Below are positions 11,486 through 61,470 of a DNA stretch of 64,000 bases, one piece after another. This stretch comes from Cheilinus undulatus (Eukaryota > Chordata > Actinopteri > Labriformes > Labridae). A program made the position numbers and the translations under genes. Positions within the stretch are counted from its first letter, which is position 1; the number at the start of each line of letters is the position of its first letter. The DNA is taken from assembly GCF_018320785.1 (NCBI RefSeq), contig NC_054880.1, positions 793,738 through 857,737 of the forward strand. Reading direction: 5' to 3'. Below the pieces are notes generated by a model. The model did not search any database, was not told where the DNA came from, and saw only the letters and a program-made list of their open reading frames with translations.

Positions 11486-11637
11486 GTGAGTTTCAGATCT
11501 AGAACCGTTTTATGAGTCCGTTAAAGACGCTGTGACGTCAGTAGAAACAGGACGTTTGTTTATTGTTTAAGGCCTTCAGTGAAGAGGCTTTCTGTAGGTT
11601 AGCATTTAATATAAAGCTGTTGGTTTAGTCTCTAAAC

Positions 11638-14600
11638 ATGTTCATGTTCTCTTTACATGTTCATGTTCTCTTTACATGTTCATGTTCTCTATACATGTTC
11701 ATGTTCTCTATACATGTTCATGTTCTCCATACATGTTCATGTTCTCCATACATGTTCATGTTCTCTATACATGTTCATGTTCTCTATACATGTTCATGTT
11801 CTCTATACATGTTCATGTTCTCCATACATGTTCATGTTCTCTATACATGTTCATGTTCTCTTTACATGTTCATGTTCTCCATACATGTTCATGTTCTCTT
11901 TACATGTTCATGTTCTCTATACATGTTCATGTTCTCTTTACATGTTCATGTTCTCCATACATGTTCATGTTCTCTATACATGTTCATGTTCTCTGTACAT
12001 GTTCATGTTCTCTTTACATGTTCATGTTCCCTATACATGTTCATGTTCTCTTTACATGTTCATGTTCTCCATACATGTTCATGTTCTCTGTACATGTTCA
12101 TGTTCTCTTTACATGTTCATGTTCTCTTTACATGTTCATGTTCTCTATACATGTTCATGTTCTCTTTACATGTTCATGTTATCCATACATGTTCATGTTC
12201 TCTTTACATGTTCATGTTCTCTATACATGTTCATGTTCTCTTCACATGTTCATGTTCTCCATACATGTTCATGTTCTCTATACATGTTCATGTTCTCTGT
12301 ACATGTTCATGTTCTCTTTACATGTTCATGTTCTCTTTACATGTTCATGTTCTCTATACATGTTCATGTTCTCTTTACATGTTCATGTTCTCCATACATG
12401 TTCATGTTCTCTATACATGTTCATGTTCTCTTTACATGTTCATGTTCTCCATACATGTTCATGTTCTCTATACATGTTCATGTTCTCTTTACATGTTCAT
12501 GTTCTCCATACATGTTCATGTTCTCTATACATGTTCATGTTCTCTGTACATGTTCATGTTCTCTTTACATGTTCATGTTCTCCATACATGTTCATGTTCT
12601 CTATACATGTTCATGTTCTCCGTACATGTTCATGTTCTCCATACATGTTCATGTTCTCTATACATGTTCATGTTCTCTATACATGTTCATGTTCTCTGTA
12701 CATGTTCATGTTCTCTATACATGTTCATGTTATCCATACATGTTCATGTTCTCTATACATGTTCATGTTCTCTATACATGTTCATGTTCTTTATACATGT
12801 TCATGTTCTCTATACATGTTCATGTTCTCTATACATGTTCATGTTCTTTATACATGTTCATGTTCTCTGTACATGTTCATGTTCTCTATACATGTTCATG
12901 TTCTCTTTACATGTTCATGTTCTCTATACATGTTCATGTTCTCTGTACATGTTCATGTTCTCTTTACATGTTCATGTTATCCATACATGTTCATGTTCTC
13001 TATACATGTTCATGTTCTCTTTACATGTTCATGTTCTCTATACATGTTCATGTTCTCTTTACATGTTCATGTTCTCTATACATGTTCATGTTCTCTGTAC
13101 ATGTTCATGTTCTCTTTACATGTTCATGTTCTCTTTACATGTTCATGTTCTCTATACATGTTCATGTTCTCTGTACATGTTCATGTTCTCTTTACATGTT
13201 CATGTTCTCTTTACATGTTCATGTTCTCTATACATGTTCATGTTCTCTTTACATGTTCATGTTATCCATACATGTTCATGTTCTCTATACATGTTCATGT
13301 TCTCTTTACATGTTCATGTTCTCTATACATGTTCATGTTCTCTTTACATGTTCATGTTCTCTATACATGTTCATGTTCTCTTCACATGTTCATGTTCTCC
13401 ATACATGTTCATGTTCTCTATACATGTTCATGTTCTCTGTTCATGTTCATGTTCTCTTTACATGTTCATGTTCTCTTTACATGTTCATGTTCTCTTTACA
13501 TGTTCATGTTCTCCATACATGTTCATGTTCTCCATACATGTTCATGTTCTCTATACATGTTCATGTTCTCTTTACATGTTCATGTTCTCCATACATGTTC
13601 ATGTTCTCTTTACATGTTCATGTTCTCTGTACATGTTCATGTTCTCTTTACATGTTCATGTTCTCTTTACATGTTCATGTTCTCTATACATGTTCATGTT
13701 CTCTGTACATGTTCATCTTCTCTTTACATGTTCATGTTCTCCATACATGTTCATGTTCTCTATACATGTTCATGTTCTCCGTACATGTTCATGTTCTCCA
13801 TACATGTTCATGTTCTCTATACATGTTCATGTTCTCTATACATGTTCATGTTCTCTGTACATGTTCATGTTCTCTATACATGTTCATGTTCTCTATACAT
13901 GTTCATGTTCTCTTTACATGTTCATGTTCTCCATACATGTTTATGTTCTCTATACATGTTCATGTTCTCTGTACATGTTCATCTTCTCTTTACATGTTCA
14001 TGTTCTCCATACATGTTCATGTTCTCTATACATGTTCATGTTCTCCGTACATGTTCATGTTCTCCATACATGTTCATGTTCTCTATACATGTTCATGTTC
14101 TCTATACATGTTCATGTTCTCTGTACATGTTCATGTTCTCTATACATGTTCATGTTCTCTATACATGTTCATGTTCTCTTTACATGTTCATGTTCTCCAT
14201 ACATGTTTATGTTCTCTATACATGTTCATGTTCTCTATACATGTTCATGTTCTCTATACATGTTCATGTTCTCTTTACATGTTCATGTTCTCCATACATG
14301 TTCATGTTCTCTATACATGTTCATGTTCTCTGTACATGTTCATGTTCTCTTTACATGTTCATGTTCTCTATACATGTTCATGTTCTCTTTACATGTTCAT
14401 GTTCTCCATACATGTTCATGTTCTCTATACATGTTCATGTTCTCTGTACATGTTCATGTTCTCTTTACATGTTCATGTTCTCTTTACATGTTCATGTTCT
14501 CTATACATGTTCATGTTCTCTTTACATGTTCATGTTATCCATACATGTTCATGTTCTCTATACATGTTCATGTTCTCTTTACATGTTCATGTTCTCTATA

Positions 14601-17600
14601 CATGTTCATGTTCTCTTCACATGTTCATGTTCTCCATACATGTTCATGTTCTCTATACATGTTCATGTTCTCTGTACATGTTCATGTTCTCTTTACATGT
14701 TCATGTTCTCTTTACATGTTCATGTTCTCTATACATGTTCATGTTCTCTTTACATGTTCATGTTCTCTATACATGTTCATGTTCTCTTTACATGTTCATG
14801 TTCTCTATACATGTTCATGTTCTCTTTACATGTTCATGTTCTCTATACATGTTCATGTTCTCTATACATGTTCATGTTCTCTTTACATGTTCATGTTATC
14901 CATACATGTTCATGTTCTCTATACATGTTCATGTTCTCTTTACATGTTCATGTTCTCTATACATGTTCATGTTCTCTTTACATGTTCATGTTCTCTATAC
15001 ATGTTCATGTTCTCTATACATGTTCATGTTCTCTATACATGTTCATGTTCTCTTTACATGTTCATGTTCTCTATACATGTTCATGTTCTCCATACATGTT
15101 TATGTTCTCTATACATGTTCATGTTCTCCGTACATGTTCATGTTCTCCATACATGTTTATGTTCTCTATACATGTTCATGTTCTCCGTACATGTTCATGT
15201 TCTCTGTACATGTTTATGTTCTCTATACATGTTCATGTTCTCTATACATGTTCATGTTCTCTATACACGTTCATGTTCTCTATACACGTTCATGTTCTCT
15301 ATACACGTTCATGTTCTCCATACATGTTTATGTTCTCTATACATGTTCATGTTCTCCGTACATGTTCATGTTCTCTGTACATGTTCATGTTCTCTATACA
15401 TGTTCATGTTCTCTATACATGTTCATGTTCTCCATACATGTTTATGTTCTCTATACATGTTCATGTTCTCCGTACATGTTCATGTTCTCCATACATGTTT
15501 ATGTTCTCTATACATGTTCATGTTCTCCGTACATGTTCATGTTCTCTGTACATGTTCATGTTCTCTATACATGTTCATGTTCTCTATACATGTTCATGTT
15601 CTCTATACATGTTCATGTTCTCTATACACGTTCATGTTCTCTATACACGTTCATGTTCTCTATACACGTTCATGTTCTCTATACATGTTCATGTTCTCTA
15701 TACATGTTCATGTTCTCTGTACATGTTCATGTTCTCTATACATGTTCATGTTCTCTATACATGTTCATGTTCTCTATACATGTTCATGTTCTCTTTACAT
15801 GTTCATGTTCTCCATACATGTTTATGTTCTCTATACATGTTCATGTTCTCTTTACATGTTCATGTTCTCCATACATGTTTATGTTCTCTATACATGTTCA
15901 TGTTCTCTATACATGTTCATGTTCGCTTTACATGTTCATGTTCTCTTTACATGTTCATGTTCTCTATACATGTTCATGTTCTCTATACATGTTCATGTTC
16001 TCTTTACATGTTCATCTTCTCTTTACATGTTCATGTTCTCTTTACATGTCCATGTTCTCTTTACATGTTCATGTTCTCTTTACATGTTCATGTTCTCTTT
16101 ACATGTTCATGTTTTAGTCTCTATACATGTTCATGTTCTTTATACATGTTCATGTTTTAGTATCTATACATGTTCATGTTCTCTATACATGTTCATGTTC
16201 TCTTTACATGTTCATGTTCTCTTTACATGTTCATGTTCTCCATACATGTTTATGTTCTCTATACATGTTCATGTTCTCTTTACATGTTCATGTTCTCCAT
16301 ACATGTTTATGTTCTCTATACATGTTCATGTTCTCTATACATGTTCATGTTCTCTATACATGTTCATGTTCTCTTTACATGTTCATGTTCTCCATACATG
16401 TTTATGTTCTCTATACATGTTCATGTTCTCTATACATGTTCATGTTCTCTATACATGTTCATGTTCTCTATACATGTTCATGTTCGCTTTACATGTTCAT
16501 GTTCTCTTTACATGTTCATGTTCTCTATACATGTTCATGTTCTCTGTACATGTTCATGTTCTCTTTACATGTTCATGTTTTAGTCTCTTTACATGTTCAT
16601 GTTTTAGTCTCTGTACATGTTCATGTTTTAGTCTCTATACATGTTCATGTTCTCCATACATGTTCATGTTCTCTATACATGTTCATGTCCTCTATACATG
16701 TTCATGTCCTCTATACATGTTCATGTTCATGTTCTCTGTACATGTTCATGTTCTCTTTACATGTTCATGTCCTCTATACATGTTCATGTCCTCTATACAT
16801 GTTCATGTCCTCTATACATGTTCATGTTCATGTTCTCTGTACATGTTCATGTTCTCTTTACATGTTCATGTCCTCTATACATGTTCATGTTCATGTTCTC
16901 TGTACATGTTCATGTTCTCTTTACATGTTCATGTTCTCTTTACATGTTCATGTTCTCTATACATGTTCATGTTCTCTTTACATGTTCATGTTCTCTTTAC
17001 ATGTTCATGTTCTCTTTACATGTTCATGTTCTCTATACATGTTCATGTTCTCTATACATGTTCATGTTCTCTTTACATGTTCATGTTCTCTTTACATGTT
17101 CATGTTCTCTATACATGTTCATGTTCTCTTTACATGTTCATCTTCTCTTTACATGTTCATCTTCTCTTTACATGTTCATGTTCTCTTTACATGTTCATGT
17201 TCTCTTTACATGTTCATGTTCTCTATACATGTTCATGTTCTCTATACATGTTCATGTTCTCTTTACATGTTCATGTTCTCTTTACATGTTCATGTTCTCT
17301 ATACATGTTCATGTTCTCTTTACATGTTCATGTTCTCTATACATGTTCATGTTCTCTATACATGTTCATGTTCTCTGTACATGTTCATGTTTTAGTCTCT
17401 ATACATGTTCATGTTCTCTATACATGTTCATGTTCTCTTTACATGTTCATGTTCTCTATACATGTTCATGTTCTCTTTACATGTTCATGTTCTCTATACA
17501 TGTTCATGTTCTCTTTACATGTTCATGTTCTCTATACATGTTCATGTTCTCTATACATGTTCATGTTCTCTGTACATGTTCATGTTTTAGTCTCTATACA

Positions 17601-19393
17601 TGTTTATGTTCTCTATACATGTTCATGTTCTCTATACATGTTCATGTTCTCTATACATGTTCATGTTCTCTATACATTTTCATGTTCTCTGTACATGTTC
17701 ATGTTTTAGTCTCTATACATGTTCATGTTCTCTATACATGTTCATGTTCTCTATACATGTTCATGTTCTCTATACATGTTCATGTTCTCTGTACATGTTC
17801 ATGTTTTAGTCTCTATACATGTTCATGTTCTCTATACATGTTCATGTTCTCTGTACATGTTCATGTTTTAGTCTCTATACATGTTTATGTTCTCTATACA
17901 TGTTCATGTTCTCTATACATGTTCATGTTCTCTATACATGTTCATGTTCTCTATACATGTTCATGTTCTCTATACATGTTCATGTTCTCTATACATGTTC
18001 ATGTTCTCTATACATGTTCATGTTCTCTATACATGTTCATGTTCTTTATACATGTTCATGTTCTCTATACATGTTCATGTTCTTTATACATGTTCATGTT
18101 CTCTATACATGTTCATGTTCTTTATACATGTTCATGTTCTCTATACATGTTCATGTTCTCTATACATGTTCATGTTCTTTATACATGTTCATGTTCTCTA
18201 TACATGTTCATGTTCTTTATACATGTTCATGTTCTCTATACATGTTCATGTTCTCTATACATGTTCATGTTTTAGTCTCTATACATGTTCATGTTCTCTA
18301 TACATGTTCATGTTCTCCATACATGTTCATGTTCTCTATACATGTTCATGTTCTCTATACATGTTCATGTTCTCTTTACATGTTCATGTTCTCTATACAT
18401 GTTCATGTTCTCTTTACATGTTCATCTTCTCTTTACATGTTCATGTTCTCTATACATGTTCATGTTCTCTGTACATGTTCATGTTCTCTATACATGTTCA
18501 TGTTCTCCATACATGTTCATGTTCTCTGTACATGTTCATGTTTTAGTCTCTATACATGTTCATGTTCTCTATACATGTTCATGTTCTCTTTACATGTTCA
18601 TGTTCTCTATACATGTTCATGTTCTCTATACATGTTCATCTTCTCTTTACATGTTCATGTTCTCTATACATGTTCATGTTCATGTTTTAGTCTCTATACA
18701 TGTTCATGTTCTCCATACATGTTCATGTTCTCTGTACATGTTCATGTTTTAGTCTCTATACATGTTCATGTTCTCTATACATGTTCATGTTCTCCATACA
18801 TGTTCATGTTCTCTGTACATGTTCATGTTTTAGTCTCTATACATGTTCATGTTCTCTATACATGTTCATGTTTTAGTCTCTATACATGTTCATGTTCTCT
18901 ATACATGTTCATGTTTTAGTCTCTGTACATGTTCATGTTCTTTATACATGTTCATGTTCTCTATACATGTTCATGTTCTCTATACATGTTCATGTTTTAG
19001 TCTCTGTACATGTTCATGTTCTTTATACATGTTCATGTTCTCTATACATGTTCATGTTCTTTATACATGTTCATGTTTTAGTCTCTGTACATGTTCATGT
19101 TCTTTATACATGTTCATGTTTTAGTCTCTGTACATGTTCATGTTCTTTATACATGTTCATGTTTTAGTCTCTGTACATGTTCATGTTCTTTATACATGTT
19201 CATGTTTTAGTCTCTGTACATGTTCATGTTCTTTATACATGTTCATGTTTTAGTCTCTATACATGTTTATGTTCTCTATACATGTTCATGTTTTAGTCTC
19301 TGTACATGTTCATGTTCTCTTTACATGTTCATGTTCTCTATACATGTTCATGTTCTCTTTACATGTTCATGTTTTAGTCTCTATACATGTTCA
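11638..19393. repeat. Giant 19-bp minisatellite (7.75 kb)
   Basis: About 400 copies of ATGTTCATGTTCTCTATAC with variants at the CTATAC end (CTTTAC, CCATAC, CTGTAC, CCGTAC). Because 19 is not divisible by 3, each forward frame cycles through all three phases. The unit makes no stop codon, so all three forward frames stay open for kilobases; the apparent protein of about 2000 residues (MFMFS, HVHVL, TCSCS repeats) is an artefact. From about 16110 onward, units with an inserted TTTTAGT and units with a duplicated CATGTT appear. The array occupies what would be intron 1 of the class I pseudogene. Confidence 0.97.
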
Positions 19394-20559: not shown

Positions 20560-20850
20560 ATGTCCACGTGCTGCAGTGGAGGCACGGCTGTGTGGGGGAA
20601 AAGCAGCCAGACGGCAGCCTGAGGTTCGGCGGCGGCATGGACATGTACAGCTATGATGGAGACGACTTCCTGTCCTATGACGACGCCAACCATGTCTGCG
20701 TCGCACCGAGTATGGCGGCAGAGCCCACCAAGAGGTAGTATGATAATGTGCAGGTCAAAACCGAGTACATCAGACGCTTCCTGAGAAATGACTGCATGAA
20801 CTCTCTGAGCATGCTCCTGGAATACGGGAGAAGACAGCTAGAAAACGCCA
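20560..20850 (+). pseudogene. MHC class I alpha2 exon with in-frame stop
   Basis: This 291-nt exon has the same length and phase as alpha2 of the intact gene (42605-42895). It is flanked by acceptor TTGATTCAG and donor GTATGT. It starts [20 protein letters not shown] and keeps both alpha2 cysteines (in HGC and NDC). A TAG at 20736-20738 replaces the lysine after PTKR, and the next residue is Tyr instead of Trp; these correspond to Lys146 and Trp147, which bind the peptide C-terminus in class I molecules. A Trp in the V-W-V motif is also changed to Cys. The domain therefore cannot be made, although both splice sites look usable. Confidence 0.9.
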
Positions 20851-20917: not shown

Positions 20918-21745
20918 AGCCCCCTACGGTCCTCCTGTTTGCTAAGAACAACATTAAGAGGAACGTCGTTTTGACGTGCATGGCCGCCGGATTCTTCTAC
21001 AAAGACATGGACTTACAGATCAAAATGGACAGCCGGGTTCTAACCAAGGATGACGGAGTCACAACGAGCAGCGCCCTGCCAGACGTAGACGACACCTTCC
21101 TGAGGAGAGACAGCGTGGGGATCTTCAGGGACAGCGTGGGGATCTTCAGGGCCAGCATGGGGATCTTCAGGGCCAGCATGGGGATCTTCAGGGACAGCGT
21201 GGGGATCTTCAGGGCCAGCGTGGAGATCTTCAGGGACAGCGTGGGGATCTTCAGGGCCAGCGTGGAGATCTTCAGGGACAGCGTGGGGATCTTCAGGGAC
21301 AGCGTAGAGATCTTCAGGGACAGCGTGGGGATCTTCAGGGACAGCGTGGGGATCTTCAGGGACAGCGTGGGGATCTTCAGGGCCAGCGTAGAGATCTTCA
21401 GGGCCAGCGTGGGGATCTTCAGGGCCAGTGTAGGGATCTTCAGGGACAGCGTGGGGATCTTCAGGGACAGCGTGGGGATCTTCAGGGCCAGGGTACGGAT
21501 CTTCAGGGACAGCGTGGGGATCTTCAGGGCCAGCGTAAAGATTTTCAGGGACAGCGTGGGGATCTTCAGGGACAGCGTGGGGATCTTCAGGGCCAGCGTG
21601 GGGATCTTCAGGGACAGCGTGGGGATCTTCAGGGCCAGGGTAGAGATCTTCAGGGACAGCGTGGAGATCTTCAGGGACAGCGAGGGGACGTTCACTTGCC
21701 ACACGTCTCACGAAGCATCCAGCCAGGCCGCTGAAAGTACCTGGG
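20918..21745 (+). pseudogene. MHC class I alpha3 exon with expanded internal repeat
   Basis: An 828-nt exon is bounded by acceptor CTCCTGCAG and donor GTAAGA, in phase 1 at both ends. It encodes the Ig C1-type alpha3 domain. It opens EPPTVLLFAKNN, has the first Ig cysteine in VLTCMAAGF and the second in FTCHTSHEA, and ends STWG, all paralogous to the intact gene's alpha3. Between LRR and DSEGTFTC sit 27 copies of a 7-residue unit (DSVGIFR type) that occurs once in the intact gene. Without the repeat the exon would be the usual size of about 95 codons. The whole exon is free of stops. Such an insertion next to the second Ig cysteine should destroy the fold. Confidence 0.9.
21109..21675 (+). 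repeat. 21-bp coding minisatellite, 27 copies, inside alpha3
   Basis: Twenty-seven units of exactly 21 bp (GACAGCGTGGGGATCTTCAG plus G) fill 567 bp with no indel and no stop. The variants are mainly GAC/GCC at the first codon and GGG/GAG at the fourth. The reverse strand is also open in two frames. In the intact paralogue the same place reads DSIEIFR once. Confidence 0.95.
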
Positions 21746-21900: not shown

Positions 21901-24723
21901 CAGGGTGTCAGTCACAGAGGGGGCCAGATTCTGGATTCAGGTCTAACCTGAGAGCCTAACAGGGTCCACATTAAACCAAACTGTTAACCTCAACAGTAAT
22001 AAATGGTGGAAAAACACTGATGATAAATGATTCTGAGATTTAAAACGTCAAAATGATCAGTTACAAGGCATAAAGTCTGAAATAAAAATTCAAACTTATT
22101 AGTTTAAAAGGTCAAAACACAAAATATGATGTTACAATAATGATTTTAAAAGGCAAGTATATTTTTAAAAAGTCACAATCATGTTTTAATGCAAAAATAG
22201 GACTTAAATTTTAAAATGGTGCAACTAAAAATTCAAAATATGAGATAATGGTCGAAATAATAAATTGAAAAGGTCAAAATATGAGATAAAAAGTCAAAAG
22301 AATAAATTTACAAAGTCAAAATTAAAAATTGATAAAGCCAAAATTTTAAGTTGAAAAAGTTAAAATACGAGATAAAAAGTTGAAATAATAAATGTAAAAT
22401 CCAATCCACTTTATTTATATAGCACATTTTAAAAACATTCACGTTTACCAAAGTGCTGCACGGTAAAATCAAAGACGTCACAAACACTGCTAAAATTAAA
22501 ACAACAACAACAACAACAAGAGGAAAGGCATAAAAGCAAGCAAGAACAACATAAAACATTAAAAAAGAAATAAAAACACATAAAACAAATAAAAGCCATA
22601 GAAACACAGGGGTTAGGACCAAAATGCCATAAAGGACAGAGATCACACAACTCTCCTGCTGAGTTAAAAGCCAAAGAGTAAAAATGAGTTTTAAGCCGTG
22701 GTTTAAAGGTCGGTAGGGTGGGGATGTTTTTATTTCCAGGGGCCGTTTGTTCCACATTTTGGGAGCCACTGCAGAGAAGGCTGGATCGCCTCGCGTTTTA
22801 ATCGGGTCTTTGGGGCGACGAGCTGAAGCCGATCAGCAGACCTCGAGGACCGGGAGGGGCTATAAACATTTAAAAGGTCAGAGGTATACTGGGGTGCTGA
22901 TCCGTTTAAAGATTGAAAAACAATAAAATGTTAAGATAAATTCTAAAATGAACGGGAAGCCAGTGGAGGGACGCCAGGATCAGGGTGATGTGGTCATGTT
23001 TTCATGTACCTGTTAAAAGATGAGCAGCAGCATTTTGGACTAACTGTAAACGTAAAAGCCTGATTAACACCAACGTAGAGAGCGTTACAGTAGTCCAACC
23101 GTGTAGAGATAAAAGCATGAGTTACTCGCTCAGAGTCGGTAAAAGATAAAACCCATTTAATCTTGGATAAAAGTCTCAGATGATAAAAACTGGATTTAAC
23201 AACTGAATTTATTTGTTGATCCAATTTAAAATCACTGTCAACTTTCACACCAAGATTTAAAACTGTGGGTTTAAAATAAGGTAAAAGAGGGTCCAGGTCC
23301 CTGAGAGGATCTTCCTGGGCTCCACTTGGGCCAAAAATGATCAGTTCAGTTTTATTTTCGTTAAAATTTAAAAAGCTTGGGGCCTTTCAGTCTCTAATGT
23401 CTTTAAAACAGTCCAGCAGACGTTTAAGAGAGCTGCCATCATTTTTGTCTATTGGCAGGTAGATCTGAGTGTCGTCTGCATACAGATGGTAGGAAATGCC
23501 ATGCTTTTTAAAAATAGGCCAAGAGGGAGGAGGCAGAGGGAGAAAAGGATGGGACCAAGAATAGAACCCTGGGGAACTCCACAGGTTAGGGGGGGACAGG
23601 AAGAGACACAGACACCAGTTTTAACTCTAAAACACCTCTCAGACAAGTAGGACCTGAACCAGTTAAGAGCTGTACCTGTAAAACCAACACAGTGTTGGAG
23701 GCCAGCAATGAGAGTTGTGTGATCGACTGTGTCAAAAGCTGCTGTTAGATCTAAAAGCATTAAAAGAGCTGAGTCAGCAGAGTCAGTAGTCAATAAAAGA
23801 TCATTAAAAACCCTTAAAAGTGCCACTCAGTGCTGGGAAATGCCTAGAAGTTTAAAGTGTGAAATAAAAGCCCAAATAATCACTTAAAGTTATAATTGTG
23901 TGATGCAAAATTGAAAATATGAAATGAAAACAAATTCATTTCCTTTCCCACATTTCTTTTTGTCTCGTTTTTTCAGTCTTTACTTTTTCACATATTTTGA
24001 TTAAGGATATTTGATATCAAGGTTATGTTTTTATTTTTCTACTGGAGGAAATCTAACCTGACAGGCCAGATGGATGTGTTTCACACATGCATCTGGGAAA
24101 GCTTCAATAGGAAACATTTGAGAAAAGGTAGAGGATTTGAAAAAACTCAGAGTGTGATTGGATGAATGTTCTGTCACATCTCTACAGGCCAATCAGAGCA
24201 ACAAAACATGTGACGTAGTAGCTATCCAGCTGCGGCTACTAAGGAATAACGTGAAACCTGGCGACTACAGACATGTCAGTACTCGACTTTTGTGGTTTTT
24301 GAAAAGAAAACAACTCACTGCTGTTCTTTGTTCTTCTTTTAACGGAGAAATGTCATCAAGTTCTGATAAAACTGGTGCTTTAGCAGCATCCACGCTAATC
24401 TCTTCCTCCAATACTGCACCAGCTCTTGCTGCTGCTTGTTTACGTCACGACTCTGCTGCGCCTAAAAGTACTGCCCCTCGTCACTGATTGGTCCTGTCAC
24501 TTTCTAACCGGGCCCAAACGTTTCAGATGGGAGCTTAACAAGATGGATTCACCAGTGAAAAACAAGGAAACGGGCGGGTCCATCTGCTTTGCAAGGTTAG
24601 AGGAAATCTGCAGACCTCGTATTTTTGGCTCAGTTATAATAATAATATGATTTGATCTCGTGGGCCGAGTGTAACTGTGTCATGGGCCGGTTTGGCCCCT
24701 GGACCTTGAGTTTGACACCCCTG
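21901..24723. mobile_element. hAT-type element with 8-bp TSD, split by a LINE
   Basis: The termini are CAGGGTGTCAGTC on the left and TTTGACACCCCTG on the right, forming short inverted repeats of the CAGGGGTGTCA type. They are flanked by identical 8-bp direct repeats ATCTAGAT at 21893-21900 and 24724-24731. An 8-bp duplication and CAGNG ends are characteristic of hAT transposons. The body is AT-rich with repeated GTCAAAAT motifs and no transposase. A LINE relic is inserted at 22396-23835, so the element was originally about 1.4 kb. Confidence 0.8.
22396..23835 (-). pseudogene. Degraded LINE reverse transcriptase (CR1/L2/Rex-type)
   Basis: Reading the minus strand, the reverse transcriptase palm appears first (LTAAFDTVDHTTLI, then CGVPQGSILGPILFS; about 23790-23530). 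Next comes the C-terminal region (SSFYHLRLLSKIK, then STRLDYCNALYVG; about 23210-23070). Last is the tail motif APKMWNKRPLEIKT (about 22765-22725). Frameshifts separate the blocks and the YADD box reads only partly. The 3' end carries the CTATATAAATAAAG-type tail and an AAC microsatellite. The copy is 5'-truncated and dead. It sits inside the hAT-type element and is therefore younger than it. Confidence 0.85.
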
Positions 24724-25772: not shown

Positions 25773-25879
25773 GTGACCTTCTCCCTCCTGAACAAGACTC
25801 TGGAAGCGTTCTGGTGATTGTTGGAGGAACAGTCGGGGTTCTGCTCCTGTTAGCCGGGCTGATAATTGGAGCTTTAAAA
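25773..25879 (+). pseudogene. MHC class I connecting/transmembrane exon, donor lost
   Basis: After the acceptor CTGTGTTAG the frame reads GDLLPPEQDSGSVLVIVGG and continues with a hydrophobic stretch ending LLAGLIIGALK. It aligns with the TM exon of the intact gene ([19 protein letters not shown]). The intact gene splices at AAAA|GTAAGT; here the corresponding bases are AAAAGACGTG, so the donor GT is missing and the frame would run on to a stop near 25957. It is in the right order and strand to belong to the leader, alpha2 and alpha3 fragments upstream. Confidence 0.8.
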
Positions 25880-26219
25880 GACGTGACTTTTTCTTTAGAA
25901 CTCTCTTCAAGTGTGAGCTTCTGCAGGAGGACGGCGGTCTCTGCCGTTATTCTGTGATGGACTTTATGGTCCATTGAGTGGACTAAGGTAGTTCCAGGTG
26001 GTCCAGGTGTGTAAAGTCCTCACCTACTCCTGCAGGCTCTCTGAGAGCTCAGACACTCCAGCGTGCTTCTGTGACGATGCCTCCTTTAAGAGGAGACGGT
26101 TGGTGACATTTCACCCCTGCTGGATGTTCCTCTCAGCTGTCAGTCAGATTATTAGAGAGTGGAAGAGTTCAGGAACAACAGCAGCTCAGCCATGAAGAGG
26201 ACGACGGAAAGCACGACCA
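25880..26219. other. Tail region of the class I pseudogene, no clear exon
   Basis: Cytoplasmic tail exons matching the intact gene were not found. A TCCTGCAG acceptor-like site near 26030 is followed by unfamiliar sequence. Confidence 0.35.
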
Positions 26220-34683: not shown

Positions 34684-34852
34684 TGAAATATGCAGTGCAA
34701 CATAGTCAGGATAATAATGATCATTTTAATACATGAACATGTATAGAATATTTAAAAGCAGTGGTTGACAGTGTGCTTTGACACATTTGCAAAGGTGAAA
34801 TTATAAAAAAGTTAAAACAAAACCCCGAGAGAAGAACCCAAGAACCAACAAC

Positions 34853-35716
34853 ATGAACCCCAACACAAGAACCAACATGAACCCCAACACAAGAACCAAC
34901 ATGAACCCCAACACAAGAACCAACATGAACCCCAACACAAGAACCAACATGAACCCCAACACAAGAACCAACATGAACCCCAACACAAGAACCAACATGA
35001 ACCCCAACACAAGAACCAACATGAACCCCAACACAAGAACCAACATGAACCCCAACACAAGAACCAACATGAACCCCAACACAAGAACCAACATGAACCC
35101 CAACACAAGAACCAACATGAACCCCAACACAAGAACCAACATGAACCCCAACACAAGAACCAACATGAACCCCAACACAAGAACCAACATGAACCCCAAC
35201 ACAAGAACCAACATGAACCCCAACACAAGAACCAACATGAACCCCAACACAAGAACCAACATGAACCCCAACACAAGAACCAACATGAACCCCAACACAA
35301 GAACCAACATGAACCCCAACACAAGAACCAACATGAACCCCAACACAAGAACCAACATGAACCCCAACACAAGAACCAACATGAACCCCAACACAAGAAC
35401 CAACATGAACCCCAACACAAGAACCAACATGAACCCCAACACAAGAACCAACATGAACCCCAACACAAGAACCAACATGAACCCCAACACAAGAACCAAC
35501 ATGAACCCCAACACAAGAACCAACATGAACCCCAACACAAGAACCAACATGAACCCCAACACAAGAACCAACATGAACCCCAACACAAGAACCAACATGA
35601 ACCCCAACACAAGAACCAACATGAACCCCAACACAAGAACCAACATGAACCCCAACACAAGAACCAACATGAACCCCAACACAAGAACCAACATGAACCC
35701 CAACACAAGAACCAAT
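34853..35716. repeat. Perfect 24-bp minisatellite, 36 copies
   Basis: The unit reads MNPNTRTN in one plus frame and MLVLVLGF in one minus frame. In every translated frame all copies are identical, which means no substitution in 864 bp. The long open frames on both strands follow from a period divisible by 3 and are not evidence of a gene. Confidence 0.97.
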
Positions 35717-36929
35717 ATGACATGAATCAAAGATAAAGTGTATAAATCAGAAAAAAAAACCATCTTATATATAAAAATCATATACATCAACAAGTATGCA
35801 AGCATTATGAACCATCTGGAAATTATTATAAGAACCCAGACAAACCCAGGCAATACAAGAATAAAACTGTAAATAATCAAAGGTGAAATGAGACCCAAAG
35901 ACCCACGGATCAGGAACATGACTCTAGACAGACAGAAGTGAGAGGATAGAAAACACTGAGAAAGGTGGCAGAGGCCATAAGAGTAAGAAGGAGCATAATA
36001 GTTAAATTATAATAAAAAAGGTAATAGGTTCTTTGCAGTCACATGATTCTGATGAGGTGCAAACGTCTGTTGAGGGTCAGGAAGCGGGGGACGGTCATTA
36101 GGAATGAAGGAAAGTCAGCGCTTTCCAGCTCTAAATGGGCATCTACACTGCAATTATCATCAGAACATTTCTGCATATATGGAGTACAATCCCTACACTT
36201 TATATTAAGTGATTTTTACCACAATTTAACTGATTTATCTGGTGAGGAGGTGATCAATATCAAAATGTAATCAGAAGTGCTAGTGTCTTGCGTCGTCTAG
36301 AGGAGTCTAGTGCTGAGCTAAGCTGCGCTGAGCCTCTTTAACGTATAACATTCCTCATTTTATCACTAGCATGATTTTAACTGAAACAGTACTAACTGAA
36401 TAATGAACCATGAACCATACATGACCGGCTTGTCCCGGATTTAGACGGAGGCTTTTTTTAAAATTCCTGCCCGATGACGTTTTACCAATAGTTCGCTTAA
36501 ACTTCTTTTGCCTGAAGATTTGACTACTTTTAGGACACAAAGGTAGCTTAACAATTAAAAATATTTTCATTTTCACACTCTGGACACTTGTCATAGTCAT
36601 AAACTGCTTAAAACACAGACTTTTAGGTAGAGTTCTCCATGCAGAAATCACTACTTGCCTCCCCATTGGGAAATTTCCACTATGTGACGCCATCTACAAA
36701 GAACCTACAGCAGTCAAAGACTGAATAAAAAGAAGTAAAAACAGCCCAGAACAAAAGAAACCATAAAAACAGGAGAGACAGAGAAAGATGTTAGATGAAA
36801 TGAGAAAAATGAAGATAAAAAGACCGCAAGAATGAAGGTTAAGGATTAGAAATGGTGTTAGAGTGAGTAAAGGCACTAAGCAGACGATATCACACAAAAA
36901 CAAGTCTATAAAAATAAGTTTTAAGAAGG
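35717..36929. other. Intergenic stretch, no gene recognised
   Basis: A minus-strand open frame at 36355-36693 has no recognised domain. Its right part (about 36700-36930) may already belong to the LINE-derived segment that follows. Confidence 0.35.
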
Positions 36930-39658: not shown

Positions 39659-42600
39659 CTGTGAATAAAACAAATAAAAACAGTGACTGATCGTGTATGG
39701 AGTCACTATCAAAGTGTAGATCCAGCTAAACTAAACCTGTTCCTGAGGAATTACACATAACTCTGAACATACTTTACAGGACTGTAAATAAAAATATACA
39801 TGCTCTATTGAGGGCTTTATATCACATTTCAGACTAAAACATGACTAAGTCACAAGAACTCCAGCTAACTGCCATAATAATTAACAGGACTTTTACTCAG
39901 CGTGACCTCTGAACAGCTCATAAAGTCCATAATAAAATAATAACAGACCTTTGCACCTGATAACCAGCAGTAATAACACAGACACATCATTGTGGCTATC
40001 AGCCTTATAGTGTGACGTAACGTCCGTAATAACTGTTACGACTAAAACTACTGCCAGGTACTTTCTGCCCCTACAACTCTGCTGACCACTGCTCCTGCTG
40101 TTTTTCATGAGTCGCCTTGTTTCCATGAGTCCAGAGCAACAGAAACAGACTTAAAGAGCCTGTAAAGCAAAATTCAAAGTTTGTGTCTGAACACTCTGAT
40201 TTTGAAGCTGATTTTCATAAACTCAGAGACGTTTTATCTGACTGGAATTTGATTTAGGGGTTCATAACACAGTGATCTGTCACACCACAAACCTAAATAC
40301 TCATTTATCTTCACTTTCACTTTCTCTTCCTTACAAAAAAATGCACAGCTTAATACATAATAGTACATGGTCATAAATACCTCACAATATAGATCACAGC
40401 GACCTTTAACCTCCAAAATCTACAAGTTCACCCTCAAGTTACAGAGTAGGTTTGCTCCAAATGGTGCAAAAACCCCTGAATGCATCCTTGAGATAGTGTT
40501 CACAAGCAAACGATAAAAATGAGGCTAATGACTGATTTTGGAAGCTGTAAGTTGAAAATCAAACTGTTTCATCCTTCAGAAATAGTGGATAAAGTTCAAA
40601 GTTCAAGGAAAATCCCAGAAAGTGTTCTTGAGATAAGACATTAACAAGAACAGCCCAAACAGAGTGTACTCCTAGAAAAACATTTAAATTAAAATTGTTT
40701 GGTCTTTCTTTCAAATAATCCTGTTCTAAATAAGTCCACGTTGAAGGAAGAGGCACTTACTTTTATTCCGCAGGAAGACAACCAGCCCCCCAATACCAGC
40801 ACCAATCAGGAGCAGTGCGGCCATCCCTCCAACAATCGGCCCCAAACTACCAGAGTCATCACAAGGAGGGAGAATCTTATCTGAAACACAGAAAACACTC
40901 TTTAGTTTCATCTTCACATTTCAGTTCTGTTAAGGGTTCCAGCCCTAAGAGGGAAGAACCTTACAGCCTTTGTGTCTGTTACTCTTTCTGCTCAAAACAT
41001 CCAAATTCCCATGAGATAAAATATACTAGTAACACAATACCTGGCATTTTTACCAAAAATCCTGCCCATTAACTCCATCAGAAATCTACACCCCATCAGC
41101 CAGAGGGTGGCGCTGTAATTAAGGAAAGGCTATTTCTGAAATGCCTCTTTGAAGGCAGACTGACTTTATAAATGACACATGTCTGATTCAATAGGACTGC
41201 TGAAGTTTGCTATCGCTAGCTAGCTAAGCTTAGCTACTTAGCAGCCACCTGAGCTTAAATGGTTGAGAACTTCTTGCTCTCCACTATAGTAGCACTATCC
41301 ACCCAAACACATGGCCAATACATCAACCTGTGTGACTTTGGTTGTGGTGTTGATGTAAGGAGAGGGATCCTCCTCTACTGTAGATCCAACAGCTGTAAAC
41401 ACCACACAGCTAAGTTCAGACTGGGATCTCTCTGGTTTTACTGGTTTAAACAGTGCTGTATGGGATCCAACTGGACACAGTCTTAGAGTTTAATTCACAA
41501 TCTCTATTTTCATGTGATTTTCAGGTGATGTAAACAAATGTCATTTTTAAGAACTAGAGAATAAAATGCGTAGTGCTGCAGCTCCACGTAGTGGTCAATA
41601 GCATCTGCTACAGCTGAGAGCTGTGAATTAAAACCAAATGTGCTGTGAAATTTAGGCTGTTATCAGCTGGACAAGGCTTGCTGACATCTGACTTTGTTTT
41701 GAAGGTATAGACCAATAAGCTTTGAGTGAGACAGGGAGGGTGTTAGCAGGAATTTGTAGATAGGAGCCCAGAAATCACCGTTTCTGCAGCACTATCGATG
41801 AGGTTTAGTCTACTAAAAGCTCCCATTGTGACGTATTTCTCAACTAATTATTCCAAAAAGCCAAAGCGTCCTACCCCAGGCACTTTCAACCATAAAGCCG
41901 GATGCTTTGTGAGACACGTGACAGGTGTAGTCCACCAAGTCGTCCCTGAAGATCTCGATGCTGTCCCTCCTCTGGAAAGTGTCGTCTTCGTTCGGGAGGG
42001 CGTCGGTAGATATCACCCCGTCTTCTCTGGTAAGGATGCGACCGTCCCTCTTGATCTTCAGTTCGATTTCTTTGGGTAGGAAACCGGTGGCGAAGCAGGT
42101 CAAAACGACGTTTGACTTGATGTTGGAGTTCTTCGCAAACAGGGTAACTTTGGGGGGCTCTGCAAGAGAAAACAGGGACCAGAAAATGAACATTTAACAC
42201 AATTCATGAGTGAGTCTGTCACGAAGAACGGACAAAAACGCCGTTGCAAACAGGAGACGTGTGATGGTGCTAGTGGGACTTGGCTCAGGAGGTTAAAATA
42301 CTGGTTTTACCTAACAGCTTGTGCTCTCTCATATCATTGGTTTTGATTTTCCTACAAAAACTAAATCACACTGAAGTCTTACCTGGTCTTCTTGGCAAAA
42401 ACTAGAAGTGCTTTTGTCAAAACTTCCACTCTAAAAGACCGAGTTTTAGCTCGTCTTATTCTAGTCCTCCTCATGGAAAAAGGACATCAAGAACATTTTA
42501 GACAGTTTTAGTCCACAAAATGATCACTGGATCAGTCAGTAAAACCTTTAATGGATGCTCACACTCTGCTGAAATAAACAAGTAGACCAAGCAGTCATAC

Positions 42601-45600
42601 ATACCGGCAGTTTTAAGCTGCTTCTGTCCGTAGTCCATGAACTTGGTCAGCCAATCAATGCACTCCTTCTCCAGGTAGCCTCTGGTGTACTCTTTCAGGA
42701 CCTGGACGTTGTCCCACTTCCTCTTGGTCGGTTCTGCTGCGGCGGTCGGTGCCACCCAGACTTCGTTGGAATCGTCGAAGGACAGGAAGTCGTTCCCGTC
42801 GTAGTTGTACATGTCCATGCCACGCAGGAACTTCAGGCTGCCGTTTGGCTGCTTTTCCCCCACGCAGCCGTGCATCCACTGCAGCACGTGGACGTCTGAA
42901 ACAACAGAAACCAACACAACCAGGATCTAAAACCCTCCGTTTCCTTATTGAACAATCCAAACCTCTGCAGACCTCAGTGGTTGTCTTTAAAGCCTAAGTA
43001 TTATACAGCAGTGAAAGCTCTAGGATGTTCTGAACAAGCTCTGACAGCAGATGAACTTTGAACTTTGCTCTCTGTTGAAGTTGTCTGATGTTCCTCACAC
43101 GTTCCACACAAAGCCTTAGTAATAATTTTGTTTTAGTGAAGTATTTGGAGGGTTTTTACTTGTTTTCATTTGTTTTATGTGCTGTCCCCTGGATGTTGAT
43201 GCTCTTGGTGCGAGACTAAGGGTCAACAAAAGTTCCTTTCATTCATCTCTAAGTTAAGTATATATTCATGTATGATAAATTATATATTTATTTATATTTT
43301 TATAGTCGAGCTCTAAACATCCTTTTCTCCAGGACTACCTGGGCTTTAAGAATGTCACTTTTATAAAGTTCTGGGACTGTAAAGACAAAAGAAAAACACT
43401 AATCAGAAATTATTGTTCTGTATTGAACTCAGTAAACATTCATGACTACGGGGTTTTTGCCCCATCTCTTTACACTAAAGAATTAAAAATAAGAATTCTG
43501 TGACAGAAAGTCTTCAAAATATTCACATTTCTACATAAAAGTCATTATTTAGAGCTCAGAGACTCTGAGGGACACGTCACGGCCTCTCTGTGTCTCTTTC
43601 TCTCTGTTATGAGTCAGTCAGGCTCTCTTATGGAGTTTCTAAGTCTGTGCACAGGCGCTGTTCGCTAACACAACTGGTTGTTGTAGCCCAGTTGCAATGC
43701 ATTCTGGGATACACAGAGACAATATGGCGGCAGGCTAACCAGCTAACTGCAGGAATGATTGAAAACTGGATGATAAATGGATAAAAAGGCGTTCAAAGTC
43801 AGAGTTCCTGATGTGGATTTAGACTTTAAAGACCCTGGAAAGTCAGCCCAGACCCAGCCTCTCTAGAAAACGCTCTCTGATGTTTTACCGACGTTCTACG
43901 AAGGCTAAAAGAGCGTCATTAGAACGGTACAATGGAGAGCTTTCAGAGGAAAACAACGCTGAGCTGGCCATGATTTACAGTTCAAAGGTTATTAACTCTG
44001 AGTAGCACCTGTCTCTGATTGGCTTAAACACCAATGTGGTCCTTACAGCTAGAATAAGGGTTAGGGTTAGGGTTACCTGAGTTGTTCTGTCTCATCCTCT
44101 CCATCAGGATGTCGATGTTCACTTTGAACCACTGCTGCTTGCTCTGGCGGGACTGTGTGCCTTTCTCCCAGTAATCGGCATCAAGTCTCTCCTTCATCCA
44201 GTCCTCTTTAGGAATCTTCTTCTGGATCGTGCTGTCGTAGTAGTCGATCATCTTGTTGTCCAGCAGACCCATGGCCGTGAACTCGTGGATGCCGGGGAGC
44301 CCCACGGGTTTGGACAGGGCCGTGTAGATGTAGGTGAGCGAGTGAATCTCTGAGAGGGGCACAGGGAGAAAGACGGAGACTGATTTAGTTTTTAGAGAGC
44401 AGAGAGAAGAACCCAAGTCATCCTCATCCTCGCCTTTCAGAGAGCCAACCTAACTGTGATGTCCTAAAAGTCACATCTTCATCAATCCAACCACAGAGAT
44501 ACGAGCAGACATCACCCCCGTGGAAGAAAGAGACAAAAACTCTTTCAGACACTCACCTGGAGCTCAAATATCTACATGTTCTTGGAAATACCAAACAGAT
44601 TTACAGAACTGGAGTTCCTACAGCCAGTTAGATGACTGTTTATGATAGAGACGTACTGATAAGGATCGGATCGTTAAGTATTGATAAGGATAATCACACA
44701 GCTTATTTATGAACCATTTCTGAATAAGATCGTCACGTCAGAGATATCTGAACAATGTCGTCTGTCCTGATCTGTCAGCCAATCAGGGGGTGGCACTTAT
44801 CCAGGGAGCCAAAGATCAACAACAAGTCATAAACACCTGTACCTGTCTGCTAACCTGGCTTTATATCCACGGGAAGGATAATTTAATCCCCCTGATGGCT
44901 TAAACATTAAACTACATTACCTCAATGATACCACAGTAACAGGATCACACCAGGATTAGTTCACTTTTTCTCAGACATATTCAAACCTTTAAACCTTTCA
45001 TAAATAAAACAGGAAAAGGTCAGAGCTCTAATCCCACATTAAACTGGGTATAAACCTGATTCTGACCTCAGAACTGATCCTTTCAAAGGTACATCCATTG
45101 ATTTGTTTCCCCATTTAAAAGCTTTAACAGGCATCCTTTATTTATTTATCTGTGTATTTCCATCAGATGTGCAAAAGAACATGCAGGATAAATATCACTG
45201 ATTATTGACAAAGGACAGAAAAAGGTCTGAACTCAACAAACTTTAGTTTTCTCTCAGTAATCTGAAGCAGCTCTGTAAGGGAACAGTTTTTTAATTCAGC
45301 CTTTCTTTTACAAAATATGACTTTATACCGACTGTACACTATAATGCCAAAAGTATTCGCTCACCTGCCTTGACTGGCATATGAACTCTAGTGACATCCC
45401 ATTCTTAATCCATAGGGTTTAACCTGATGTGGGTCCACTCTTTGCAGCTAAAACAGCTTCAACTCTTCTGTGAAGGCTTTCCATAAGGTTTAGGAGTGTG
45501 TTGATGGGAATTTTTGACCATTCTTCATTGGTCCATTCTTCATTCAATTCACCGAGCGTCTGAGAGCGAGCCATTCTTTCACTAATGTTTGCAGAAACAG

Positions 45601-47284
45601 TCTGCATACATAGGTGATGATTTTATACACCTGTGGACATGGAAGTGACTGGAACACCTGATTTACATTATTTGGATGGGTGAGTGAATACTTTTGGCAA
45701 TATAGTGTATCTTGATTTTGTCAACAGTCAGACACACTATAACAAATTAATCTTTATTTTATTAACTCCAGATAATTCCCTAATATTAGTAATAATATTT
45801 TATAATAAAATGCAGTATTTCACTTTCCTCAGTCATCTAAACTATCTAATCACTGAATTTCATGATTTTCTAACTTAATCTTTAATATCAACCATTTTAA
45901 ACTAATCTTCTCTGATTAATTTGTTATGTTTCATACAGATGAGCTGGTGTTTTAACAAATGAGCAGAAATAAATCAAAAGAGGATAAAGCACAAACAAAA
46001 CCATCATGTGACTGGGTAAACATGGGATTAAAATAATAAACTAGCTTTTGAACCCATCTAGTTATCATAATAGACTATAGAGAAAGAGAAATAATGAGAC
46101 TGACAGGTGAACCACAGCTTAATAATGGTTTTAGTCATTATTGGTTTGGTTTGTGGCTCTTCCAAAGATTTTTCCCACAAAGGGTTAAATGTATAGTCCA
46201 GTCCAGACACTGGTTGTTTATTTAGCCTGTAGTTAATTGATGGTTATTCACTTAAATAATAATAATAATTATTAAAACATTAAAGCCTTTTGTTTAAGAA
46301 AAACCTGAGGAAGGAGTGATTCATGGACTCAATAAAAAGTTTGAGGTTTGTTTGGAAAAGAGATTGATAAGCTGGCACTCTCTTTAAGCATTGAAAGGCC
46401 TTTATTTTCAGGGCATGGTCGTGTGTAGACTTAAAAACACACTTCAGCGCGTTTCAGCATCAAACCTTCATCAGGAAGTCAGGGCTTCAACTGTTTTTAG
46501 GTCTAGACACGACCATGCAGTGGAAATAAAGGCATTTTAATGCTTGAAGAGACTTTTTTCCTTTTATTTCACAGTTTGGCCTGAAGTATCAGTGCTGAGA
46601 AAGCTTCATTTTACCACTAAATATATGTTAATCTAAATTATTGGCATTAAGAGAAGTCTAACAGGAAAATAACAAAACCCAAAAAGTAATAAAACTCAGT
46701 ATTAGTAAAAAAATAGTCTAAATAATGAGATAAAATGCCTTTCTGACAAGTCATGTCATTATTTTCACATCTTACTTCATAATTATGACAGCTGATGATA
46801 ATAGTCAGAATCATTTTTCAGTAATGTTTCTGTTTTCTGTTCAGTCACGGACAGTGAACATAGAAACCTGAATTTCCTTCTTTATATGTGTTTGAAATTG
46901 TTGTTCGTCCGGACAGAGTGAAAATATAACTCCATAATCAGACGGCTGTCAGAACTTCCTGTTCATTTTACTGTTGACGCCATGTTATTACCAGGCCTAA
47001 CTTACCGACGGCCTGGCCTCAAAACAACACACGTTTTCTTATTAGTTTCACGGTATTAGATTAAAAATGGAGGAGCACTTCAAACCGTGAAGACATAAAG
47101 TGTTCCTGCTGAGAACAGTACACTGAAATGATCGATGAACATCACATTTTAAAAGACGTCACAACTTCTCCCGCTATACTTTCGATTTGGACTAGAATCG
47201 TATAAACGTGTCAAAAACAGCGAACTCACCGCCGTTTACCGTCAGTCCTGTTCCCAGGAGGACCAGCACCAGGATCAGGTTCAT
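37944..47284 (-). CDS. MHC class I heavy chain (U-lineage-like), spliced
   Basis: Membrane glycoprotein that would present peptides with beta-2-microglobulin at the cell surface. The exons below were read from splice signals and all junctions are phase 1: leader 47230-47284, alpha1 44077-44349, alpha2 42605-42895, alpha3 41875-42159, TM 40761-40880, tail 39635-39658, 39497-39529, 38465-38494, 38123-38170, 37944-37979. No stop or frameshift is seen in these 1195 coding nt. Peptide-binding residues look classical for fish: Tyr7, Tyr59, Arg in place of Tyr84, Thr143, Lys146, Trp147, Tyr159, with Phe in place of Tyr171. The alpha2 and Ig cysteines and the end-of-alpha1 glycosylation site are present. 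The final exon with the stop is uncertain; a candidate at 37745-37779 would add 11 residues. It converges on the plus-strand class I pseudogene. Assignment to U lineage rests on remembered family features. Confidence 0.9.
38643..39050. mobile_element. Possible MITE in class I intron
   Basis: CACTGGCGCC (near 38655) and its inverted copy GGCGCCAGTG (near 39030) bracket about 400 bp without exons. Target duplication was not established. Confidence 0.35.
40761..40880 (-). CDS. Class I exon 5: connecting peptide and TM segment
   Basis: 40 codons: [12 protein letters not shown] as the connecting peptide, then a membrane segment [19 protein letters not shown] continuing LVVFL, and the stop-transfer RNK. 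Acceptor TGTTTCAG, donor GTAAGT, phase 1 on both sides. Confidence 0.92.
41875..42159 (-). CDS. Class I exon 4: alpha3 Ig domain
   Basis: 95 codons of an Ig C1-set domain: [12 protein letters not shown], first cysteine in VLTCFATGF, second in [10 protein letters not shown], ending ESAWG. The segment [11 protein letters not shown] is the place where the paralogous pseudogene has expanded one 7-codon unit to 27. Acceptor TCTTGCAG, donor GTAGGA. Confidence 0.93.
42605..42895 (-). CDS. Class I exon 3: alpha2 domain
   Basis: 97 codons. It starts [20 protein letters not shown], with [14 protein letters not shown] in the floor, and PTKRKWDN and [11 protein letters not shown] in the helix. The cysteines in HGC and KEC form the alpha2 disulfide. 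Thr143, Lys146, Trp147 and Tyr159 are present; Phe occupies 171. NGS is a second possible glycosylation site. Acceptor GTTTCAG, donor GTATGT. Confidence 0.93.
44053..44076 (-). repeat. Telomere-like repeats at the alpha1 splice donor
   Basis: Read on the gene's strand the intron begins GTAACCCTAACCCTAACCCT, so the 5' splice site is part of a (CCCTAA) run. Confidence 0.9.
44077..44349 (-). CDS. Class I exon 2: alpha1 domain
   Basis: 91 codons. It starts [12 protein letters not shown], continues with IDYYDS, EDWM and [11 protein letters not shown], and ends [10 protein letters not shown]. The Y in LTYIY is Tyr7 and the Y in DYWE is Tyr59; Arg stands at position 84, as in most fish class I chains. 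NNS provides the conserved N-glycosylation site near residue 86. The acceptor is CCCCTCTCAG. The donor is GTAACC and is embedded in telomere-like repeats. Confidence 0.93.
45337..45707. mobile_element. Tc1/mariner-type MITE in class I intron 1
   Basis: The termini CACTATAATGCCAAAAGTAT and, inverted, CACTATATTGCCAAAAGTAT bound 371 bp, with TA on both sides (45335-45336 and 45708-45709). There is no intact transposase. This is a well-known type of fish element. Confidence 0.85.
46380..46552. mobile_element. Short foldback MITE in class I intron 1
   Basis: About 50-bp imperfect inverted arms at 46381-46429 and 46502-46552, sharing AAGCATT, CCTTTATTT and GCATGGTCGTGT, enclose about 70 bp. No coding. 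Confidence 0.7.
47230..47284 (-). CDS. Class I exon 1: signal peptide
   Basis: ATG at 47284-47282 opens [18 protein letters not shown], a short hydrophobic leader, then one base and the donor GTGAGT. The plus-strand leader exon at 11431 has the same length, phase and LGTG motif. No other in-frame ATG lies close upstream. Confidence 0.88.
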
Positions 47285-61400: not shown

Positions 61401-61470
61401 TAGAGCAGCGGTAGGATGTCGGTAGAGCAGTGGTAGGGTGGCGTAGGGTGGCGTAGGGTGGCGGTCACAG
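58441..61470. repeat. 21-bp minisatellite (3 kb)
   Basis: About 140 units built on GGTGGTGCTAGAGCAGC plus ATAA. Variants are AGAGAGGC, AGAAGGGC, GGAGTGGC and AAAGCAGC. A longer punctuation block containing GCGGTAGGATGGCGGTAGAG recurs near 58620, 59290, 59400, 60600 and 61405. The 21-bp period keeps several frames open on both strands (HKVVLEQ on plus; SSTTLCC and ALAPPYA on minus). No start context, splice site or domain suggests a real protein. Confidence 0.95.

Follow-up and report, generated by a model that had tools for sequence, protein, structure and literature searches.

Teleost MHC class I molecules of the Z lineage carry the substitution Y171F relative to classical class I, and 37 of their groove residues show near-complete conservation, according to the portions of the source used here (PMC4364491). 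The excerpts of a study on frogs link subtelomeric recombination to minisatellite growth, and describe a SINE-derived segment which expands only in its subtelomeric copies (PMC10794172). Likewise, slippage at non-contiguous repeats has been proposed for the birth of a minisatellite in guppy mitochondrial DNA (Taylor and Breden 2000, cited in PMC3599147, itself used in part). Among the papers listed from an open library, none was, by its title and the opening lines of its abstract, about a tandem repeat within the alpha3 exon of an MHC class I gene, and none was seen in the portions of PMC7853315 and PMC6523485 that were at hand.

The window analysed here is a stretch of 64,000 nucleotides of Cheilinus undulatus (C16:793738-857737, from an assembly of 1.17 Gb in 46 contigs). 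It contains a class I gene copy, hereafter locus P, in which a short coding unit of the alpha3 exon has been multiplied in tandem (Table 1). This array very probably arose when a minisatellite expanded neutrally, through slippage or unequal crossover, within a gene, dying or already dead, that lies in a subtelomere-like zone.

Table 1. Features of the array-bearing locus P and of its paralogue B (positions counted from the first base of the window)
Feature	Position	Strand	Remark
19-bp minisatellite	11629..19373	+	about 401 copies; upstream of P, where alpha1 is expected
alpha2 exon of P	20560..20850	+	ends by reading splice sites
In-frame TAG in alpha2 of P	20736..20738	+	Lys in A, B and C
alpha3 (Ig C1-set) exon of P	20918..21745	+	defective locus; splice sites intact
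Array of 27 in-frame 21-bp units in the alpha3 exon	21109..21675	+	consensus DSVGIFR; TRF and unit cutting
13-bp partial unit	21676..21688	+	candidate slippage seed
Transmembrane (TM) exon relic of P	25773..25880	+	donor altered by reading of the sequence; end approximate
alpha3 exon of B	41873..42160	-	unit once (DSIEIFR)
alpha2 exon of B	42606..42896	-	
alpha1 exon of B	44078..44341	-	

The tandem array and its exon

The TRF call on the array covers 21109-21688 with a period of 21, 27.6 copies, 90% matches and 0% indels, and it is hence a minisatellite in the usual sense of a head-to-tail array with many copies of a unit of about 10-100 bp. Cutting from 21109 yields exactly 27 uninterrupted units, which fall into 11 types with the commonest present 14 times, and their overall identity to the consensus GACAGCGTGGGGATCTTCAGG is 94.4%. 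The 27th unit is followed by GACAGCGAGGGGA, the 13-bp partial unit. The two procedures agree with the sequence-only reading of this DNA, which had described a 27-fold in-frame repetition of a 21-bp unit inside the alpha3 exon of an MHC class I gene, and its description of intact splice sites and of both Ig cysteines around the array is confirmed as well. The exon of 828 nt has an AG acceptor, a GTAAGA donor, an open frame and its two cysteines (in LTC and FTC); its length minus 26 units is 282 nt. A higher-order repeat in the array was considered and rejected, as the identity at lag 2 (0.924) differs too weakly from that at lag 1 (0.903). The array is known from one assembly.

Paralogues and the ancestral unit

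The search of the genome with an alpha3 query gave at least 15 matches, five of which represent four Z-type loci (one match each in A, B and C, and two pieces in P). These loci are all located inside C16:740-838 kb, with A and P on the plus strand and B, the minus-strand copy of the window, and C on the minus strand. The remaining ten, among the matches listed, are weaker (31-42% identical), and seven of them are found at C16 7.9-8.1 Mb; these seven look like putative U-lineage alpha3 exons. The joined exons of B match the Pfam families MHC_I (8.8e-40) and C1-set (1.1e-10), and A and C were assigned to class I by their tblastn similarity to B. The aligned Y171F position is occupied by F in A, B and C and by L in P. 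The assignment to the Z type is based on class I domains, the F at this position and the genomic layout (PMC4364491).

It had been stated earlier that DSIEIFR is present once in the minus-strand copy, which is correct for B and extends to the other loci: GACAGCATCGAGATCTTCAGG (DSIEIFR) is single in A and B, and locus C has a single unit that differs by one base. The minisatellite lies within the exon at an identifiable site, as had been proposed. One unit is the ancestral state and the array is derived in P, since the other nearby Z-type loci, three out of three, carry the unit once. The proposal of a ‘single-copy ancestor 20 kb away’ is not supported. Locus B is, by its divergence, an old paralogue of P and not the direct ancestor; the two differ at 24% of nucleotides in alpha2 and 27% in alpha3, with an NG86 dS of about 0.7. 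The units nearest to that of A and B are units 27 and 10, with 2 differences.

Loci A and B, separated by about 70 kb, constitute an inverted pair (window 41763-47147; C16:760625-767888). Four matched blocks of this pair have identities of 96.7-99.8%, and the best of them extends over 1740 bp, which would point to a recent inverted duplication or conversion.

Lesions of the array-bearing locus

The array-bearing gene copy is defective: its alpha2 exon has a stop, alpha1 was not found and the TM donor is altered, while alpha2, alpha3 and the TM relic are kept in order. The residue after the alpha2 TAG is also changed in P, and is Trp in the others. A tblastn search for the alpha1 exon of P over C16:715001-877737 (162,737 bp, of which the 5000 bases of C16:726738-731737, 82 kb from P, are N) matched the alpha1 exons of A, B and C, together with one extra stretch of 20 residues (E 0.28) that is 82 kb from P on the opposite strand. 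Similarly, blastn and tblastx over 40.5 kb upstream of P recovered for alpha1 only a 30-bp match at the alpha2 edge. The 19-bp minisatellite upstream of P spans 7.7 kb.

The residues common to A, B and C are changed in P at 13 of 54 positions in alpha2, one of them the stop, and at 20 of 67 in alpha3, one of them a deletion. With disabling lesions against intact paralogues, P is a pseudogene or gene fragment, and it lacks the combination of Y171F with a complete alpha1-alpha2 that makes up a Z-lineage groove. By descent, P is a decayed relative of the Z lineage. The alpha3-TM intron of P also harbors a reverse-transcriptase fragment (23449-23826, minus strand; Pfam RVT_1, 1.8e-9), presumably of a non-LTR element.

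Open frame and selection

The array has neither a stop nor an indel, as had been pointed out, and the observation is true (0% indels, open exon) but expected with or without selection. Steps of one unit keep the frame because 21 bp make seven codons. None of the 63 single-base changes of the consensus unit gives a stop, and across the whole array the number is 7 out of 1701. In a simulation with 32 random mutations, the frame of the array stayed open in 93% of the runs; the figure was 33% when ordinary class I coding DNA of the same length was used. Hence, with no one-step stop in the consensus unit and with unit-sized steps that keep the frame, the open frame is uninformative on selection; it was discarded as a sign of it, the stop-free and indel-free state being expected neutrally. 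Among the regional arrays with at least 15 copies, 10 of 24 show 0% indels, the alpha3 array included, when each merged array is represented by its first TRF row. The repeat unit of Prdm9 also has a length that is a multiple of three.

The differences among the units fit neutrality, and mild constraint is compatible with them as well. There are nine distinct unit mutations, 3 silent and 6 changing, with 21-27% expected to be silent in the absence of selection. The probability of at least 3 silent mutations is 0.28-0.46 without selection, and that of at most 3 is 0.36 at an omega of 0.38 and 0.09 at an omega of 0.2; nine mutations are too few to separate neutrality from an omega of 0.38. Outside the array, the NG86 dN/dS of P vs B is 0.29 in alpha2 and 0.38 in alpha3. 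The lineage-specific ratio outside the array is 0.55 for P (29 changing, 12 silent) and 0.60 for C (33 and 14), a locus which looks intact, with no stop in the exons read. By these ratios P was under constraint, outside the array, for much of its history. The gene hence lived long after the duplication, and it may have been in that period that the array started to grow.

This history of constraint, like the intact exon frame, splice sites and cysteines, speaks for a reading in which the array grew in a functional gene, its frame kept by selection, and in which a class I molecule longer by about 182 residues in alpha3 was made and used for a time. That reading is nevertheless unlikely, as an open and stop-free frame is expected without selection, and the alignment places the insert in the segment just before the second cysteine. 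In other class I chains this segment forms a strand of the Ig fold, and an insert falling in it should therefore disturb the fold. An alignment-free structure model of the alpha3 exon alone gave a long helix with the Ig fold absent at a pTM of 0.30, a score at which the model is uninformative. It is very improbable that a Z-type gene was still making protein while the repeat grew, and that its long-repeat product, or stop-free alleles, acted as a decoy or scaffold before the death of the locus.

A neighbourhood rich in minisatellites

Arrays in the region were counted by TRF at a period of at least 10 and a span of at least 200 bp. On this basis, C16:715001-877737, which is near the contig end, holds 28 arrays that amount to 37.1% of its sequence, and all of the 10 flanking pieces contain arrays (9-64%). 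Samples of 10 kb from the middle of chromosomes were without arrays by TRF in 6 out of 6 cases, whereas those about 0.8 Mb from contig ends had arrays in 5 out of 5 (73%, 99.8%, 8.7%, 6.7% and 100%), with 2428 and 5000 N among the 10,000 bases of the 8.7% and 6.7% samples, respectively. Arrays were absent from the C16 sample at 1.6 Mb, and the 5 kb at 1.1 Mb had one array of the size counted, with 84-bp units, which presumably belongs to a zinc-finger gene. Minisatellites abound in the first 5 kb of C16. The label ‘subtelomere’ for this region is positional and not proven, because neither TTAGGG nor CCCTAA occurs in those first 5 kb; of the five samples near contig ends, two are below 10%.

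With minisatellites making up 37% of the region, an array in the alpha3 exon is unsurprising. The regional rate is 0.27 arrays per kb of array-free DNA, from which 0.19 arrays are expected in the exons of P, where one is observed (P(≥1) = 0.17), and 0.77 in those of A, B and C, where none is observed; these expected figures use some approximate TM exon ends.

Several other arrays may be mentioned in their own right. A 31-bp array of 58.7 copies (C16:741208-743027) takes up the greater part of the intron between alpha2 and alpha3 in C with the exons spared, and the TM exon of A is closely followed by another. The window also has a 24-bp array of 36 units (34849-35720), 99% identical and with long open frames on both strands, that looks very recent, and a second 21-bp array of 141 copies (58442-61409), the unit of which is unrelated and which contains many open frames.

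Origin of the array

The steps of neutral expansion could be arranged as follows. The source would be a single 21-bp stretch (DSIEIFR in A and B) in the alpha3 exon of a duplicated Z-type class I gene. Substitutions in the P lineage may have made the bases after the unit resemble the start of the unit (GACAGCG.GGGGA), and thereby provided a near-repeat at a distance of 21 bp that could seed misalignment. Of the 13 bases that follow unit 27, 12 agree with the start of the consensus unit and 11 with that of the adjacent unit 27 itself, and the homologous 13 bases in A and B, and in C, match their own unit at 7. The seed repeat may, however, be a product of the array and not its cause. Copying would have proceeded by replication slippage or unequal crossing-over, and steps of one unit could both enlarge and homogenise the array, with the frame kept since 21 is a multiple of 3. 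An in-frame array can thus arise without selection, because slippage and unequal exchange go in whole units. The mutation pressure would have come from the minisatellite-prone, subtelomere-like setting, and the array would have been able to persist because the dying gene was under little or no constraint. No protein function is implied by the array.

An error of assembly, by which the unit number was inflated or the array misplaced, has little probability. Some sampled stretches elsewhere do contain N, which stand for gaps or for withheld letters, but the window has none, both flanks of the exon align with the paralogues, and the units differ, with 11 types in 27. The invasion or conversion of the exon by a dispersed minisatellite family from elsewhere is least probable of all, for although several minisatellites occur nearby, one of them also of period 21, an exhaustive scan of C16:715001-877737 (5000 bases of N included) at up to 5 mismatches found, apart from the array, just three copies of the unit, one in each of the loci A, B and C and all at the homologous place in the exon.

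Neutral expansion in locus P is of interest as a clean example of a minisatellite arising within an exon, which can be compared with three single-copy paralogues of the same genome. The Z-type class I cluster sits near a contig end where more than one third of the DNA is minisatellite, and this setting may shape both the birth and the death of Z-type class I genes. Two cautions follow for annotation: an open frame through an array whose unit is a multiple of three does not count as evidence that the array is coding, and a fragment such as P could be included when alpha3 exons are counted.

Comparison with known systems

Loci A, B and C are similar to the teleost Z lineage, as far as the excerpts of its description go, in having class I domains and F at the Y171F position, and in forming a cluster that lies about 7 Mb away from further class I-like alpha3 matches on the same chromosome (PMC4364491). 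Locus P departs from that description with no alpha1 detected, a stop in alpha2, L at the Y171F position and the alpha3 array (PMC4364491). Its content of alpha2 and alpha3 without alpha1 is similar to that of class I fragments in cod, but those belong to the U lineage and not to Z, and no exon-internal tandem array was seen in the available part of that work (PMC6081975).

The zinc-finger array of Prdm9 is, like the present one, an in-frame array inside an exon, but in the account drawn on here Prdm9 encodes a protein that is used (PMC3890296), whereas P is broken. The SINE-derived case in frogs is closer in that, within the excerpts, a pre-existing short segment is tandemly amplified in copies near chromosome ends (PMC10794172), although the source in P is an exon of an immune gene. 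Likewise, the slippage model, in the form cited, has its counterpart in the near-direct short repeat one unit apart that could have seeded the array of P (PMC3599147), with the difference that the model concerns guppy mitochondrial DNA and P is nuclear, its seeding step being deduced. Taken against these systems, the array of locus P, a class I gene now decayed, is an exon-born minisatellite which is explained by its neighbourhood and is not a new kind of system.
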